A DNA stretch of 64,000 nt from positions 3,277,051 to 3,341,050 of the forward strand of contig NZ_CP017080.1 in NCBI RefSeq assembly GCF_001645685.2. Reading direction: 5' to 3'. Source of the stretch: Peribacillus muralis. Its GTDB lineage: Bacteria; Bacillota; Bacilli; Bacillales; DSM-1321. A program made the position numbers and the translations under genes. The notes below the pieces were generated by a model. The model made no database searches. It was not told where the DNA came from and saw only the letters and a list, made by a program, of their open reading frames with translations. Positions 31,361 to 45,525 of this stretch are shown piece after piece. Each line of letters starts with the position of its first letter. Positions within the stretch are counted from its first letter, which is position 1.

Positions 31361-31372
31361 GAATTTAACCAC

Positions 31373-31456
31373 TTTACTCGCCAATTTATCGATTTTACTC
31401 GCGAGTTTCCTGCTTTTACTCGCCAATTTATCGACTTTACTCGCGAGTTTCCGCTT
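31373..31456 (+). repeat. 21-bp tandem repeat array A (four units, alternating types)
   Basis: Units begin TTTACTCGC at 31373, 31394, 31415 and 31436, a strict 21-base period. Two kinds alternate: CCAATTTATCGA after TTTACTCG, and CGAGTTTCC after TTTACTCG. The second contains the palindrome ACTCGCGAGT. The same repeat family forms arrays at 40318-40500 and 41572-41711. All frames are open only because 21 is divisible by three, and no ribosome binding site is seen. Confidence 0.9.
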
Positions 31457-31517
31457 TCCATCGGAAAAATAAGTGCCTGCAGTACAATGAAACGTTCGTT
31501 GTACAAAACATCAAAAA

Positions 31518-39047: not shown

Positions 39048-40214
39048 CTAATCGGAATTAGGTTTCTCGTTCATTTTTGACAATTTTTGAATGACGGTCG
39101 CCAGCAGCAAAGTCCGCTCAGTCAGGCTCGGTATTTCCAGATATTCTTCCTCACTATGAGCATTCCCGCCAATCGGTCCAAGTCCATCCACTGTCGGTAT
39201 TCCCAAATCTGCCGTAAAGGAAGCATCCGAACCCCCGCCCGTCGCCGTATCGGTGATATTGATGCCAATCTCCTTCCCCGCCTCGCGGATCGTCTCCAAA
39301 AGCATCGTCGTTTTCTCGGTCTTTTCCATCGGAGACCGATCCATTTTTCCAGTCAATGTCGTCTTCGTTCCTGGAATATTTGACTTTGCACATATTTTTT
39401 TCATTTGCTTCAGGATGAAATCTTCCTGCCTTTTTTCCGTGATCCGTACATCGACAAAACCGGCCGCATGCGAAGCGATCGTATTGACCGCAGACCCGCC
39501 CTCGATCATGCCGACATTAACGCTGATCCCCTTCTTCCGATCATTCAATTGATGGAAGGCTATGATTTTATGAGCCAATTCCTCAATGGCACTTCTTCCC
39601 TTTTCCGGCTCGATCCCCGAGTGGGCCGCAACCCCGATTATATCTATCTTGAATTGGCCGCAGCCCCTTCTTGCCGTCACCAATGACCCATCCATCCTTG
39701 CCGGCTCAAGCACTAACGCATACTTCTTTCTTGCCGCCTTTTCAGCAATGAGGGAAGACGAAGACGGTGAACCGATCTCCTCATCACTGTTCAAAATGAT
39801 TTGAACATGCTTATAGCCTGTCTGCCCCGTCTGTTTCAAACAAAGAATCGCATAAAAAATTTCGACCAAGCTCGCCTTCATATCAGCTACACCAGGCCCG
39901 AACGCCCGATTTCCCTTCACCTTGAACGGCCGTTTCAGCACCGTCCCTTCCGGAAACACCGTATCCATATGTGCCACGACCAGAATATGCGGCTGAACCG
40001 CTTCACGATGCTGAATGACCAGCTGATTGCCATACTCCTTTTGCTTCACGACATCCACAATGAAATCCAAACCTTCAAATTTCGCTTTCAATATCAAGCC
40101 AATTTCATCTATGCCCTTTTTGGTATAAGAGCCGCTATCGATATTCACCAGCTGCTCCACGAATTGCAGCATTTCTTTCCGCTTAGCATTCAATAAGTCT
40201 CTCAAAGCCCTCAC
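39048..40214 (-). CDS. M20-family metallopeptidase, carboxypeptidase G2-like
   Basis: This is a 388-residue zinc exopeptidase with LVVAHMDTVFPEGT (metal His and Asp), GPGVADMKAS, LNSDEEIGSPSS (catalytic Glu), LEPARMDGS, the dimerisation domain GVAAHSGIEPEKGRSAIEEL, and GGNAHSEEEYL for the last His ligand. It resembles glutamate carboxypeptidases and peptidase T-like enzymes. Natural substrate unknown. The start is GTG at 40214, after GGAAAG. The repeat array B lies about 100 bases upstream. Confidence 0.88.
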   Translation of the reverse strand: MRALRDLLNAKRKEMLQFVEQLVNIDSGSYTKKGIDEIGLILKAKFEGLDFIVDVVKQKEYGNQLVIQHREAVQPHILVVAHMDTVFPEGTVLKRPFKVKGNRAFGPGVADMKASLVEIFYAILCLKQTGQTGYKHVQIILNSDEEIGSPSSSSLIAEKAARKKYALVLEPARMDGSLVTARRGCGQFKIDIIGVAAHSGIEPEKGRSAIEELAHKIIAFHQLNDRKKGISVNVGMIEGGSAVNTIASHAAGFVDVRITEKRQEDFILKQMKKICAKSNIPGTKTTLTGKMDRSPMEKTEKTTMLLETIREAGKEIGINITDTATGGGSDASFTADLGIPTVDGLGPIGGNAHSEEEYLEIPSLTERTLLLATVIQKLSKMNEKPNSD

Positions 40215-40317: not shown

Positions 40318-40500
40318 TTTACTCGGGAATTTGAGCACTTTACTCGCCAATTTGCGGGCTTTACTCGCCAATTCGCGCGCTTTACTCGCCAATTTGCGCG
40401 CTTTACTCGCCAATTTACGGGTTTTACTCGCCAATTCGCAGGTTTTACTCGCCAATTCGCGCGCTTTACTCGCCAATTCGCAGGCTTTACTCGCCAATTA
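40318..40500 (+). repeat. 21-bp tandem repeat array B (eight full units and a part)
   Basis: Units start at 40318, 40339, 40360, 40381, 40402, 40423, 40444, 40465 and 40486, an unbroken 21-base period. The consensus is TTTACTCGCCAATTYGCGNGC. The last, partial unit (TTTACTCGCCAATT) overlaps the end of the NERD gene on the other strand and provides its stop codon. There is no ribosome binding site or start suited to the open frames seen in it, so it is taken as non-coding. Confidence 0.95.
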
Positions 40501-41458
40501 ATCTTTCAAGACTATATACTCTATTTCTAAATTTCCCCCAATGGGGCAATTCCAAGACATATAACATTTTCTGCATAGTATTGATTGACTCCACCTGCAA
40601 AAATTGACGTGCCTGTTTATTGGTAATCGTGGCATTGATAAGAAGGGCGTAATCACGTAGAGTTTGAATGTGGGCATCTTTGGAGACCTTAGAACAGTGG
40701 CGGCATGACCATTTTCCCCAGTGATATTGCATCTGAAGGGCAGAACAGGCAGGACATTGAACGCTATTGAGCAAATCTTTTTCTTCAATTTGATACATTT
40801 GGAGGATATCAGGATAATGTGGGGTATTTTTTTCCACTATCGTCTTGGTTAGCTTGTTTTGCTGCCTTTGAGTTAATTGTTCAGATGGGTACCTATCTTT
40901 CAAGGTTTGGATTTTGGAGATGAGCATTTCTTTTCCTGTGATTTTCTTGAGAATGGGAGTAAAACCGGGGGTAGTCCTGATAATTGTATTCGGGTTGGCA
41001 TTCGCAACAAGCGTTTCGATCGGCAGCGCAGGAAAATCATGAACAGCGAACCATTCGCTTAACCGTGTTTTTTGCACATCGACCTGGAGGAGTGGATCCA
41101 GATAAGCTTGTTCCTGTCCATCTTTCGTCTGAATCAATTGATGGTAGGTTCGATCGAAATAGAGCATTCCTTTGAAGTCTTTCACTTCTATGATGAGGCA
41201 GTATTTCTTTGATATTATGAGGTAATCGATTTGAAAAAAGCGGTTCCCTTCGTGGCATAATCTCAAATCATGTAATACGTGATAATCTTTCGAAAGACTA
41301 TTTAACTCATTTCCAATCCTCCGCTCCCCGTTAAAGCCCGCACGGATTTTTCGGAAATCATTGTTAATACTTTCCTGTTTAGGATGATTCGCTGGCAGCC
41401 TCCTCATCAAAGCCTCCAGCATAAGCATTTTAACCGGCTTTTCACACTGTTTTCGCAT
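40487..41458 (-). CDS. NERD-domain (nuclease-related) protein with C-terminal zinc ribbon
   Basis: The 323-residue protein has a NERD domain at about residues 45-150 (ERRIGNELNSLSKDYHVLHD, QIDYLIISKKYCLIIEVKDF with the Asp and Glu-x-Lys of a nuclease site), then a helical middle, and a zinc ribbon CPACSALQMQYHWGKWSCRH near residues 235-260. NERD proteins are linked to DNA processing but most are uncharacterised. The start is ATG at 41458, eight bases after GAAGGAG. The last residues LIGE and the stop are read from a unit of repeat array B. Array C lies just upstream, so the gene is bracketed by direct repeat arrays. It is a likely accessory insertion, as B. subtilis lacks it here. Confidence 0.85.
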   Translation of the reverse strand: MRKQCEKPVKMLMLEALMRRLPANHPKQESINNDFRKIRAGFNGERRIGNELNSLSKDYHVLHDLRLCHEGNRFFQIDYLIISKKYCLIIEVKDFKGMLYFDRTYHQLIQTKDGQEQAYLDPLLQVDVQKTRLSEWFAVHDFPALPIETLVANANPNTIIRTTPGFTPILKKITGKEMLISKIQTLKDRYPSEQLTQRQQNKLTKTIVEKNTPHYPDILQMYQIEEKDLLNSVQCPACSALQMQYHWGKWSCRHCSKVSKDAHIQTLRDYALLINATITNKQARQFLQVESINTMQKMLYVLELPHWGKFRNRVYSLERLIGE

Positions 41459-41571
41459 ATTCATCACTCCTTCTCCTTTATTTTCTTTATTGAAGCTCGC
41501 TATTCCTCCTAGAAGCTGAAAATCGGTGCTAACTAGGCTATTTTTTGCTGTTTTTTTGCGAATTTGGGAGC

Positions 41572-41711
41572 TTTACTCGCCATTTCCCGGGTTTACTCGC
41601 CAATTCTCAGGCTTTACTCGCCAATTCGCGCACTTTACTCGCCAATTCGCGTACTTTACTCGCCAATTCGCAAGCTTTACTCGCCAATTTGCAAGCTTTA
41701 CTCGCCAATTG
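41572..41711 (+). repeat. 21-bp tandem repeat array C (seven units)
   Basis: Units start at 41572 (20 bases), 41592, 41613, 41634, 41655, 41676 and 41697. The consensus TTTACTCGCCAATTCGCRNRC is the same as in array B, in the same orientation. Like array B it ends on its right side with the half unit TTTACTCGCCAATT. More degenerate relatives continue to about 41800 (TTTTCTCATGAATTGAGCG, TTCACTCGTGAA). Confidence 0.95.
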
Positions 41712-41842: not shown

Positions 41843-42030
41843 TAAGAGTCCCAATTGTGCCGTTTACGCCTTTGTTTTGAACCCGCTCTCCGCAGGTGGG
41901 TGCTCGGTTCCTCGCGTTTGTAAGTCCTCCTCGAGGGGAGGCATGTACGCGGCCAGGAAACTAGTGCTCCCGGTAACTATAAGTGTTCGGTCAAAACTTA
42001 TAGGTTAAAGAACGAACACATCAGGACTCT
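41843..42030 (-). ncRNA. ssrS: 6S RNA (bsrA-type)
   Basis: On the minus strand the segment starts GAGTCCTGATGTGTTCG and ends AATTGGGACTC, closing the terminal stem. Inside are TTTTGACCGAACACTTATAG, GGGAGCACTAGTTTCCTGGC and CCCCTCGAGGAGGACTTAC, which I recognise from Bacillus 6S-1 RNA. This RNA of about 190 bases folds like an open promoter and binds sigma-A RNA polymerase in stationary phase. Its place between aspS and tcdA is that of bsrA in B. subtilis. A promoter TTGAAA (42069-42074), 18 bases, TATGAT (42045-42050) lies directly upstream. The ends are estimated to a few bases. Confidence 0.9.
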
Positions 42031-42115: not shown

Positions 42116-43885
42116 TTATTTCTTTAAGGCGGCCAGTCTTAGGCTTAGTTCTGCCAGTTGCTTGTCGCTTACGGCACTTGGTGCGTCAACGAGCAGGTCG
42201 CTTGCGCTTGCGGTTTTCGGGAACGCGATGGTGTCGCGCAGGTTCGTGCGGCCTGCAAGCAGCATGACCATGCGATCCAATCCAAGGGCGATTCCGCCAT
42301 GTGGAGGCGTTCCGTATTCGAAGGCATCCATTAGGAAGCCGAATTGTGCGTTGGCTTCTTCTTCCGAGAATCCAAGTACTTTGAACATTTTTTCCTGAAC
42401 GTCACGTTCGAAGATACGGAGCGATCCACCGCCAAGCTCGTAGCCGTTCAAGACGAGGTCATATGCTTGGGCACGGACGCTTGCCGGATCTGATTCCAGT
42501 TTGTCCATGTCTTCACGGAATGGCATCGTGAAAGGATGGTGTGCTGCATAGTAGCGGCCTTCTTCTTCGTCATATTCGAATAGTGGCCAATCGGTTACCC
42601 AAAGGAAGTTGAATTTGCTTTGATCGATCAAGCCTCTTTCCTTGCCGAGCTTGTTGCGAAGCGCTCCAAGTGCATCGGCGACGATGCCTTTCTTGTCTGC
42701 CACGAATAAGATCAAATCGCCCACTTCCGCTTCCAGTGCAGCCACTAGCTGCTGTTGGTCTTCAGCGAAGAATTTGGCTATCGGTCCTTTCACGCCGTCT
42801 GCTTCCACTTTCAGCCAGGCTAATCCTTTTGCGCCGTAGATGGCGGCGAATTCAGCCAATGCATCGATATCTTTACGGGAATAGTCGGCGTTTCCGTCCT
42901 TGACGACGATCGCTTTAACTTGCCCGCCGCTTGCAACGGCGCCAGTGAATACTTTAAAGTCGCTGTCTTTGACGATTTCAGATACGTCTTTAAGCTCCAT
43001 TCCGAAACGTGTATCCGGTTTATCTGAGCCATAGCGGCCCATCGCTTCATTGTAGGTCATTCTAGGGAATGGCAAGGATACGTCAAGTCCTTTTACATCC
43101 TTCATCACTTTCGCCATCATCTTTTCAGCCGTGTTAATGATATCTTCTTGGCTCATGAAGCTTGTTTCGATATCGATTTGCGTGAATTCAGGCTGTCTGT
43201 CAGCACGCAGATCTTCATCACGGAAGCAGCGGGCAATTTGATAATAACGTTCGAAGCCGGATACCATCAATAGCTGCTTGAAAATTTGCGGTGACTGTGG
43301 AAGCGCATAGAATTCGCCTTCGTGTACACGGCTAGGCACCAAATAATCACGGGCCCCTTCAGGTGTGCTTTTCGTTAAGATAGGTGTTTCGATATCAAGG
43401 AAGCCTTCACCGTCCAAATAATCACGGATTGCCTTAGTGGTTTGGTTACGCATTTTCAGCGTTTCGAACATCGCCGGACGACGCAAGTCCAAATAACGGT
43501 ATTTCAAGCGGATATCTTCTGAAACATCCGTTCTCTCATCAATGATGAAAGGAGGGGTTTTCGCTTCATTCAAAATCGTAACGCTTTCGGCTTGGACCTC
43601 GACCGTTCCCGTTGATACATTCGGGTTGATATTGGCTTCATCACGCTTGATGACTGTACCCTGGATATCAAGGACATATTCATTGCGGATTTTTTCGGCA
43701 GTGGCCAAAGCTTCCGCCGAAATGTCAGGATTGAAAACGACTTGTACGACACCGCTTCTGTCGCGAAGGTCGATGAAGATGACCCCGCCCAAGTCGCGTC
43801 GTTTTTGTACCCAACCCTTTAATGTTACTTTCTCACCAATTGCTGCTTCTGTTACTTCTCCATTGAAGTATGTTCTGCCAAACAT
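42116..43885 (-). CDS. aspS: Aspartyl-tRNA synthetase
   Basis: This is a 589-residue class II synthetase of the bacterial type. It has an N-terminal OB-fold anticodon domain ([19 protein letters not shown]), motif 1 region [13 protein letters not shown], motif 2 [16 protein letters not shown], a GAD insertion domain (about residues 290-410) and motif 3 [15 protein letters not shown]. It charges tRNA-Asp. It lies 12 bases after hisS in the same T-box-controlled operon, the arrangement usual in Bacillus. Confidence 0.96.
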
Positions 43886-45234: not shown

Positions 45235-45495
45235 AAAACTCCCGCCCCTTGTAACTGATCCGTTACAAGGGACGAGAGTTGGATATCCCGTGGTGCCACC
45301 CTAGTTGAAGCACAAAAAAATCAGTGCCCCCGCTTAAAACAGTTAACGCCTGTTATACGTCCATCTCCTATTAGGAAATCCGTTCGGAGTGAAGCCTACG
45401 GAGGGTTCTTTCATTAAGTCATCATGCAGAATGCTTTCAGCCAAGGCATTTCCTCTCTTTTCATGTGTTTCTTAATTACTCTTCTCCATCATTGG
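45235..45495 (-). promoter_or_regulatory. T-box riboswitch leader of hisS-aspS
   Basis: The leader contains the T-box sequence AGGGTGGCACCACGGG (minus strand, 45287-45302), which pairs with the CCA end of uncharged tRNA. It is followed by a terminator, CCCTTGTAAC-GGATCA-GTTACAAGGG and a GGGAGTTTTTG tail (about 45235-45280). The 5' part opens GATGGAGAAGAGTA, the conserved base of stem I. Uncharged tRNA-His should favour the antiterminator and read-through. I could not fix the specifier codon with certainty. Confidence 0.92.
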
Positions 45496-45525
45496 TTGTT
45501 GCAGTTATAAGTCTGATATTTTATA

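Follow-up and report, generated by a model that had tools for sequence, protein, structure and literature searches.

A gene for a NERD-domain protein in Peribacillus muralis is enclosed by two arrays of one and the same 21-bp direct repeat. We consider it likely that this is an accessory gene trapped between two arrays of a dispersed, clade-wide family, that the gene is a passenger, that the 14-bp core of the repeat is a protein recognition site, and that the orientation of the arrays is set mainly by replication. In the mechanism that we propose, the NERD gene would be deleted when the two direct arrays recombine or slip during replication, and exchange between them would keep both arrays alike. 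The 14-bp core with its free spacers, repeated at two helical turns, would be the recognition site of a putative DNA-binding protein; a core that is near-uniform within a species and different between species would reflect what this candidate protein recognizes. The direction of replication would be the main determinant of array orientation. The nuclease need not take part: the NERD protein would simply be carried along.

Two arrays around a NERD-domain gene

The window is the whole stretch of 64,000 nucleotides that was analysed (G000:C1:3277051-3341050, where G000 is the genome under study). Its arrays and the features of the locus are collected in Table 1.

Table 1. Repeat arrays and neighbouring features, in window positions
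Feature	Position	Strand	Remarks
Array A	31362..31457	+	4 units; 42-bp higher-order period, CCAATT/CGAGTT alternating
M20-family peptidase gene	39048..40214	-	Left flank of NERD locus
Array B	40318..40499	+	9 units of 21 bp, core TTTACTCGCCAATT; downstream of NERD gene, gives its stop codon
NERD-domain gene	40487..41467	-	PF08378; CxxC...CxxC
Array C	41572..41710	+	7 units, first step 20 bp; between NERD start and 6S RNA
6S RNA	41844..42030	-	Right flank of NERD locus
aspS	42116..43885	-	Right flank of NERD locus; served for synteny and tree

The locus reads tcdA - M20 peptidase - array B - NERD - array C - 6S RNA - aspS. Array B consists of a unit with 2 mismatches at 40318 and 8 exact cores from 40339 to 40499 in 21-bp steps; array C consists of a unit with 1 mismatch at 41572 and 6 exact cores from 41592 to 41710; and the half unit TTTACTCGCCAATT forms the right end of both. 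Allowing up to 2 mismatches, the 14-bp core matches 22 times in the window, against 0.83 matches expected from shuffles. The preliminary description of this DNA is borne out in its main observations: arrays B and C are one 21-bp repeat in the same orientation and with the same right edge, in nine and seven units, and the gene that they enclose is of the NERD type (PF08378, E=1.3e-19). The segment that it gave as 40318..41711 is real and ends at 41710, and the features that it named for B. subtilis at this place (tcdA, 6S RNA, aspS) are present here, with the M20 peptidase gene as a further member between tcdA and aspS. Beyond the locus, a T-box leader lies at window 45265-45501, upstream of hisS.

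The NERD protein carries the motifs CPAC...CRHC and QIDYLI...EVK, which we take to be a zinc ribbon and nuclease residues, respectively; the former gave no Pfam zinc-ribbon match. Its best NCBIfam match is to a MADS6 kinase model, over residues 46-231, at 29.5 bits against a cut-off of 460. Values of dN/dS lie between 0.10 and 0.29 (7 pairs), and the gene is therefore under selection where it is kept.

At its 3' end, the window gene runs into the repeat, its stop codon falling within the last unit of array B. The repeat supplies the stop codon in 13 of the 15 NERD genes read; those of G013 and G017 terminate before the array. In the 13 genes, a CAC (10), CGC (2), or GGC codon (1, the window gene) is followed by GAG TAA from the repeat, and these terminal codons track the form of the core that prevails in the genome; the exception is G020, whose genome is of the TG type and whose NERD gene has CGC. 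Another called gene, of 216 aa, ends within the edge unit of an array in the same geometry (L160, G024:C1:1066853), so that stop-codon capture is not unique to NERD.

A dispersed family of 21-bp repeats

Arrays of this repeat are spread over the whole G000 chromosome. With at most 1 mismatch, the core occurs 162+63 times in the genome (2+0 for a reversed control pattern), and cores two units apart number at least 57+10, all on the chromosome contig; the second contig had no repeat site among the matches listed. Arrays with 3 or more units number at least 42 in G000, at least 20 in G019, and at least 23 in G024, lower bounds in a search that was seeded by exact triples in the latter 2 genomes. 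In these 85 arrays, the units run strictly head-to-tail, none opposing its own array, and 84 of the 85 lie outside called genes (ORFs made mostly of array having been excluded beforehand). Each unit comprises the 14-bp core and about 7 variable bases. A step of 21 is by far the commonest (191 in G000, 212 in G019, 185 in G024); steps of 18-20 and multiples occur as well, and those of 19-20 bp disrupt any reading frame through the arrays. Weighted by array over the three genomes, information amounts to 0.8-1.8 bits per core position, 0.7-1.1 at position 15, and 0.0-0.5 at positions 16-21; the core values are inflated by the picking of units for likeness to the core, which leaves the low spacer values unaffected. 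Units with CGAGTT contain an internal ACTCGCGAGT palindrome. Contigs of Peribacillus sp. SI8-4 include higher-order repeats, in which blocks of 21-bp units are parted by near-identical linkers of more than 100 bp (L010).

TG-form triples occur in 17 of 36 Peribacillus genomes. With the CC/CG forms, exact patterns (pairs or triples) occur in 21/21 Peribacillus genomes with an AspS of 96% identity or more to that of G000, and in 0/15 of the others; outside this clade, G025 shows a single exact core, along with two looser units close to a distant NERD gene. Among 397 genomes drawn from the order, 6 have repeat pairs, and all 6 are Peribacillus. A scan of GTDB contigs found P. simplex, P. muralis, and sp. 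SI8-4, together with a few Neobacillus and Siminovitchia contigs; of its 11 non-Bacillaceae loci, the 8 that were viewed appear to be unrelated repeats.

Several familiar classes of repeat were considered. A CRISPR array is rejected on account of the 14-bp core and of 7-bp spacers that are reused within arrays, and no cas genes are represented in the 25 commonest neighbour families. G000 arrays have 81 neighbours, in which a Mutator transposase family was matched three times, eleven families twice, and NERD once; we reject mobile-element ends or a master gene, the Mutator-type transposase being the sole neighbour family seen three times (3/81). Carriage by phages or plasmids gained no match in the scans: the viral_contigs set holds no exact repeat pairs, blastn with the low-complexity filter on gave no match in plasmids (two arrays) or phages (one array), and no site was listed on the second contig.

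Forms of the core in different species

The core comes in dialects, here counted over units picked by likeness to any of its forms. The 301 units of G000 divide into 207 CC and 71 CG (278 CC/CG), 9 TG, and 14 other; TG accounts for 238/270 units in G019 and 235/254 in G024. Arrays with a shared flanking gene form 10 pairs between G000 and G019 and 14 between G000 and G024 (one G000 array being paired twice). Orientation and replichore arm agree in 23/24 of these pairs, yet the G000 arrays are mainly CC/CG and those of G019 and G024 mainly TG. Exceptions are the G000 array at 3826097, which keeps 3 TG among its 7 units; that at 469532, which has only 3, of mixed form; and the G019 array at 4154110, with 11 TG and 13 other units. 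Between G019 and G024, spacer sequences are conserved (14 pairs, P<2e-4); at loci shared by G000 with G019 or G024, their likeness is not significant (P=0.29 and 0.09). The dialect may have switched by change in place or by replacement of arrays.

The arrays could also be selfish or neutral minisatellites with no recognition function, whose core forms spread by gene conversion and whose polarity stems from orientation-dependent fork stability. We regard this as possible and, on balance, somewhat doubtful. Array lengths and spacers do vary between species at the same locus, as does the occupancy of loci, and anti-oriented arrays persist. Against it, near-uniform cores within a genome coexist with spacers that are locus-specific and conserved between G019 and G024, which disfavors conversion of whole units. 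Predicted single-strand folding likewise favors opposite strands across dialects (the A strand is the more stable in 31/42 arrays of G000, 6/20 of G019, and 4/23 of G024), and strand-specific hairpin stability is rejected as the cause of polarity because the folding sign flips between dialects while polarity does not. A core read by a putative protein, with spacers left free, is the reading that we prefer.

Presence, absence and probable loss of the bracketed gene

Close NERD orthologues (at least 68% identity) occur in 16 of 36 Peribacillus genomes, the window gene included, and in 16/16 cases repeat units lie on both sides of the gene. Flanking arrays are at their shortest in G017, where B has 3 units, and in G020, where C has 1-2; in G008, an assembly that is 87% complete, the gene is split in pieces. 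In G004, a third array follows a further block, mostly N, beside array C (L221, 7294-9852).

Five array-bearing members of the clade lack the orthologue. G018, G031, and G006 keep one array in its place, the empty sites that the preliminary description had predicted; G015 has about 4 kb of other sequence at the locus and neither NERD nor array; and G028 yielded no synteny in the stretch examined. The four outgroups examined have neither array nor NERD here, the outgroup Peribacillus G003 reading tcdA-M20-aspS. On a tree of 22 aspS-hisS rows, which excludes G008 and in which G004 was flagged for its composition, 5 changes are required to account for the rows without NERD (two of these being outgroups), and no fewer than 4 of the changes fall on starred branches.

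The clearest record of loss is a pair of sisters, G017 with the gene and G018 without it, which differ by about 0.3% at aspS-hisS. The single G018 array has six units. Its first two equal units of G017 array B with 0 mismatches (against 6-7 to C), its third differs from G017 array C by 1 mismatch and its last by 0 (each by 6 from B), and its fourth and fifth fit neither array well (5-7 mismatches to B, 3-4 to C). We infer that this mosaic marks a deletion between the direct arrays, followed by further change, and the unit-by-unit match lends good support to the view that G018 would have lost NERD by recombination between its arrays. The idea of a cassette lost by recombination between arrays stands in this respect, with the NERD gene looking incidental to the process. 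Arrays B and C also resemble each other more within a genome than between genomes (spacer distance 3.75/7 vs 4.27/7, permutation P=0.0001, n=14; G017 dropped for want of a usable spacer in B, G008 unused, and C of G020 contributing one spacer).

A different origin of the locus would be a single ancestral array that NERD entered and split into B and C, the single-array states being remnants of it or sites never invaded; we think this rather unlikely. The G018 array agrees at both outer edges, and the G006 array at its right edge, with the outer ends of B and C, as this account would have it, and an IS256-type element appears to have split another G000 array. There (L100, G000:C1:4375702-4378171), a Mutator/IS256-type transposase gene lies between two arrays of the same orientation, with an apparent 8-bp duplication GCTTTTAC that was read by eye and is a string found also within the array itself; this was probably one array, split by insertion of the transposase element. 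The tree, however, nests the gene-less G018 among gene-bearing relatives, most simply a loss, and insertion concerns only the origin of the locus and is compatible with later loss.

Array-bounded turnover is seen at another locus as well. Two arrays enclose a PadR/DUF1048/ABC-transporter block in G024 (L156, G024:C1:524500-538400); at the same site, G000 has one array and no block (L073), and in G019 an array flanks only one side of the block (L138). Gene-order breakpoints fall in 33/76 array gaps and in 55/168 other gaps of at least 150 bp, some of those counted at the G024 NERD gene being artefacts, because the gene caller missed that gene. The enrichment is not significant (P=0.12); a general enrichment of arrays at breakpoints is rejected, and what emerges is therefore array-bounded gene turnover at single loci, with no genome-wide rule shown.

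Orientation on the replichores

Replichore arms were placed from the positions of dif (2366061 in G000, 2847619 in G019, 2708943 in G024) and dnaA (at the first base of the contig in G019 and in G024, and some 10 kb short of the contig end in G000). The TTTACTCG strand is the plus strand on the left arm and the minus strand on the right arm in 74/85 arrays (35/42 in G000, 18/20 in G019, 21/23 in G024). When arrays with shared flanking genes are merged into 54 locus families, 43 are polar, 10 anti-oriented, and 1 mixed (P=5.6e-6). Long anti-oriented arrays exist, one of 64 units in G019. Three loci of G000 with fewer than 3 units stand outside these counts; of these, 139526 and 301419 are polar, and 3094059 is a lone near-palindromic unit. 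Arrays are distributed over the left and right replichores as 36 and 6 in G000, 16 and 4 in G019, and 13 and 10 in G024.

Genes next to the arrays, called by a simple in-house script, are mostly on the leading strand, and transcription offers another account of polarity: the arrays could be transcribed 3'-end elements of a neighbour gene, small RNA or terminator-like, whose orientation follows transcription. We judge this improbable. It agrees with the finding that only 3/85 arrays lie between divergent genes (2 of the 3 polar) and that, of 51 arrays in tandem context, 46 adjoin leading-strand genes (43 of these polar), and transcription of a 52-nt class has been reported in B. coagulans in the accessible text of PMC8161180. 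In contrast, 25/31 arrays between convergent genes follow the replichore, arrays in this position showing no significant tendency to lie closer to the co-oriented gene (19 vs 12, P=0.33), and 4/5 arrays with lagging-strand neighbours follow it too. Over the classes where gene direction cannot explain orientation, the raw ratio is 31:8 (P=0.0003), which weakens to 17:7 (P=0.064) once orthologous loci are merged. Replication is the better candidate for the cause of array polarity, if not a proven one, and its effect is not fully separated from that of gene direction.

The NERD gene and the possible role of the arrays

A functional system in which the NERD nuclease recognizes or cuts the repeats and mobilizes the cassette is highly improbable and is rejected: all close orthologues are bracketed and the gene is under purifying selection, but 40/42 G000 arrays have no adjoining NERD gene, the array-rich genomes G031 (224 triples) and G006 (65) have no close orthologue, and the gene has no PADLOC match. 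The proposal that the nuclease acts on the repeats accordingly finds no support, the arrays being genome-wide and NERD 1 of 81 neighbours of G000 arrays. G031 and G006 do hold distant NERD-like genes or pieces, and the two other NERD paralogues of G000 lie at least 14 kb from any array among those listed. Arrays accompany the close NERD homologues, and 13/14 of the distant NERD loci examined have no unit within 1.5 kb, a weak control because only 3/14 (G015, G028, G031) come from array-bearing genomes. The NERD gene, then, looks incidental to the arrays.

Our best functional guess, itself unproven, is a putative core-recognizing protein behind the arrays; the comparisons identified no trans-acting protein for them. 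Taken further, the arrays may be replication-polarized docking sites for a putative chromosome-organizing protein whose specificity changed in the G000/G030 lineage, with about 40 arrays rewritten in concert and bracketed genes made expendable through recombination as a side effect; this extension is speculative, and we hold it unlikely. Should the polarity and the concerted core forms be borne out, repeats that were published and unexplained could be put to the test: from the core one would predict a DNA-binding protein with a specificity that must have changed between known clades, and G017 and G018 together offer a natural record of gene deletion by arrays. Genes that adjoin such arrays may in this manner be lost without a dedicated enzyme.

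Comparison with known repeat systems

The preliminary description regarded the locus as a candidate for an undescribed system; the arrays themselves are already published. Subirana and Messeguer (2021, PMC8161180), the one direct precedent in our literature search, describe species-specific tandem repeats of 20-21 nt as characteristic of the B. simplex/B. muralis group and, in the accessible text, point to two helical turns and propose that the repeats act in replication or transcription and that a protein polymerizes on the DNA. The likeness is close: the organisms are the same, the unit is 21 nt, there are dozens of arrays per genome, and these are mostly non-coding, in species-specific families with a short conserved signal. 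The arrays studied here share the constant length of 20-21 nt, the species-specific short sequence, the host group, and the non-coding location. The features that they add to that account are replichore polarity, a 14-bp core whose form varies at orthologous loci, an array of mosaic make-up where a gene was lost, and stop-codon capture. The words orientation, recombination, cassette, deletion, and intergenic are all absent from the text of that paper, supplements aside. Replichore polarity, dialects at orthologous loci, and stop codons from the repeat were not found in the accessible portions of the literature searched and would be new relative to it.

The nearest case of gain or loss bounded by arrays, as far as the accessible text of PMC3898611 goes, is that of the neisserial NIME/dRS3 repeats, short intergenic repeats in arrays that flank a gene, pilC1; identical repeats at the pilC1 region of another strain may be a site of integration or deletion. 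As described there, dRS3 has a 20-bp unit with inverted-repeat ends ATTCCC(N8)GGGAAT, is mixed with longer RS elements, and is a target of phage integrase. In contrast, the Peribacillus core is asymmetric in its CC form, runs head-to-tail, and was not found in the viral contigs scanned, and TTTACTCGCCAATT has no 6-bp terminal inverted repeats of the dRS3 type. Mycobacterial interspersed repetitive units (MIRUs) are likewise dispersed intergenic repeats that can overlap the end of a coding sequence (PMC12548453, accessible text). They are described there as inserting at start codons and coupling to the downstream gene, whereas the Peribacillus repeat supplies a stop codon, and the 19-20 bp steps of its arrays break the reading frame.
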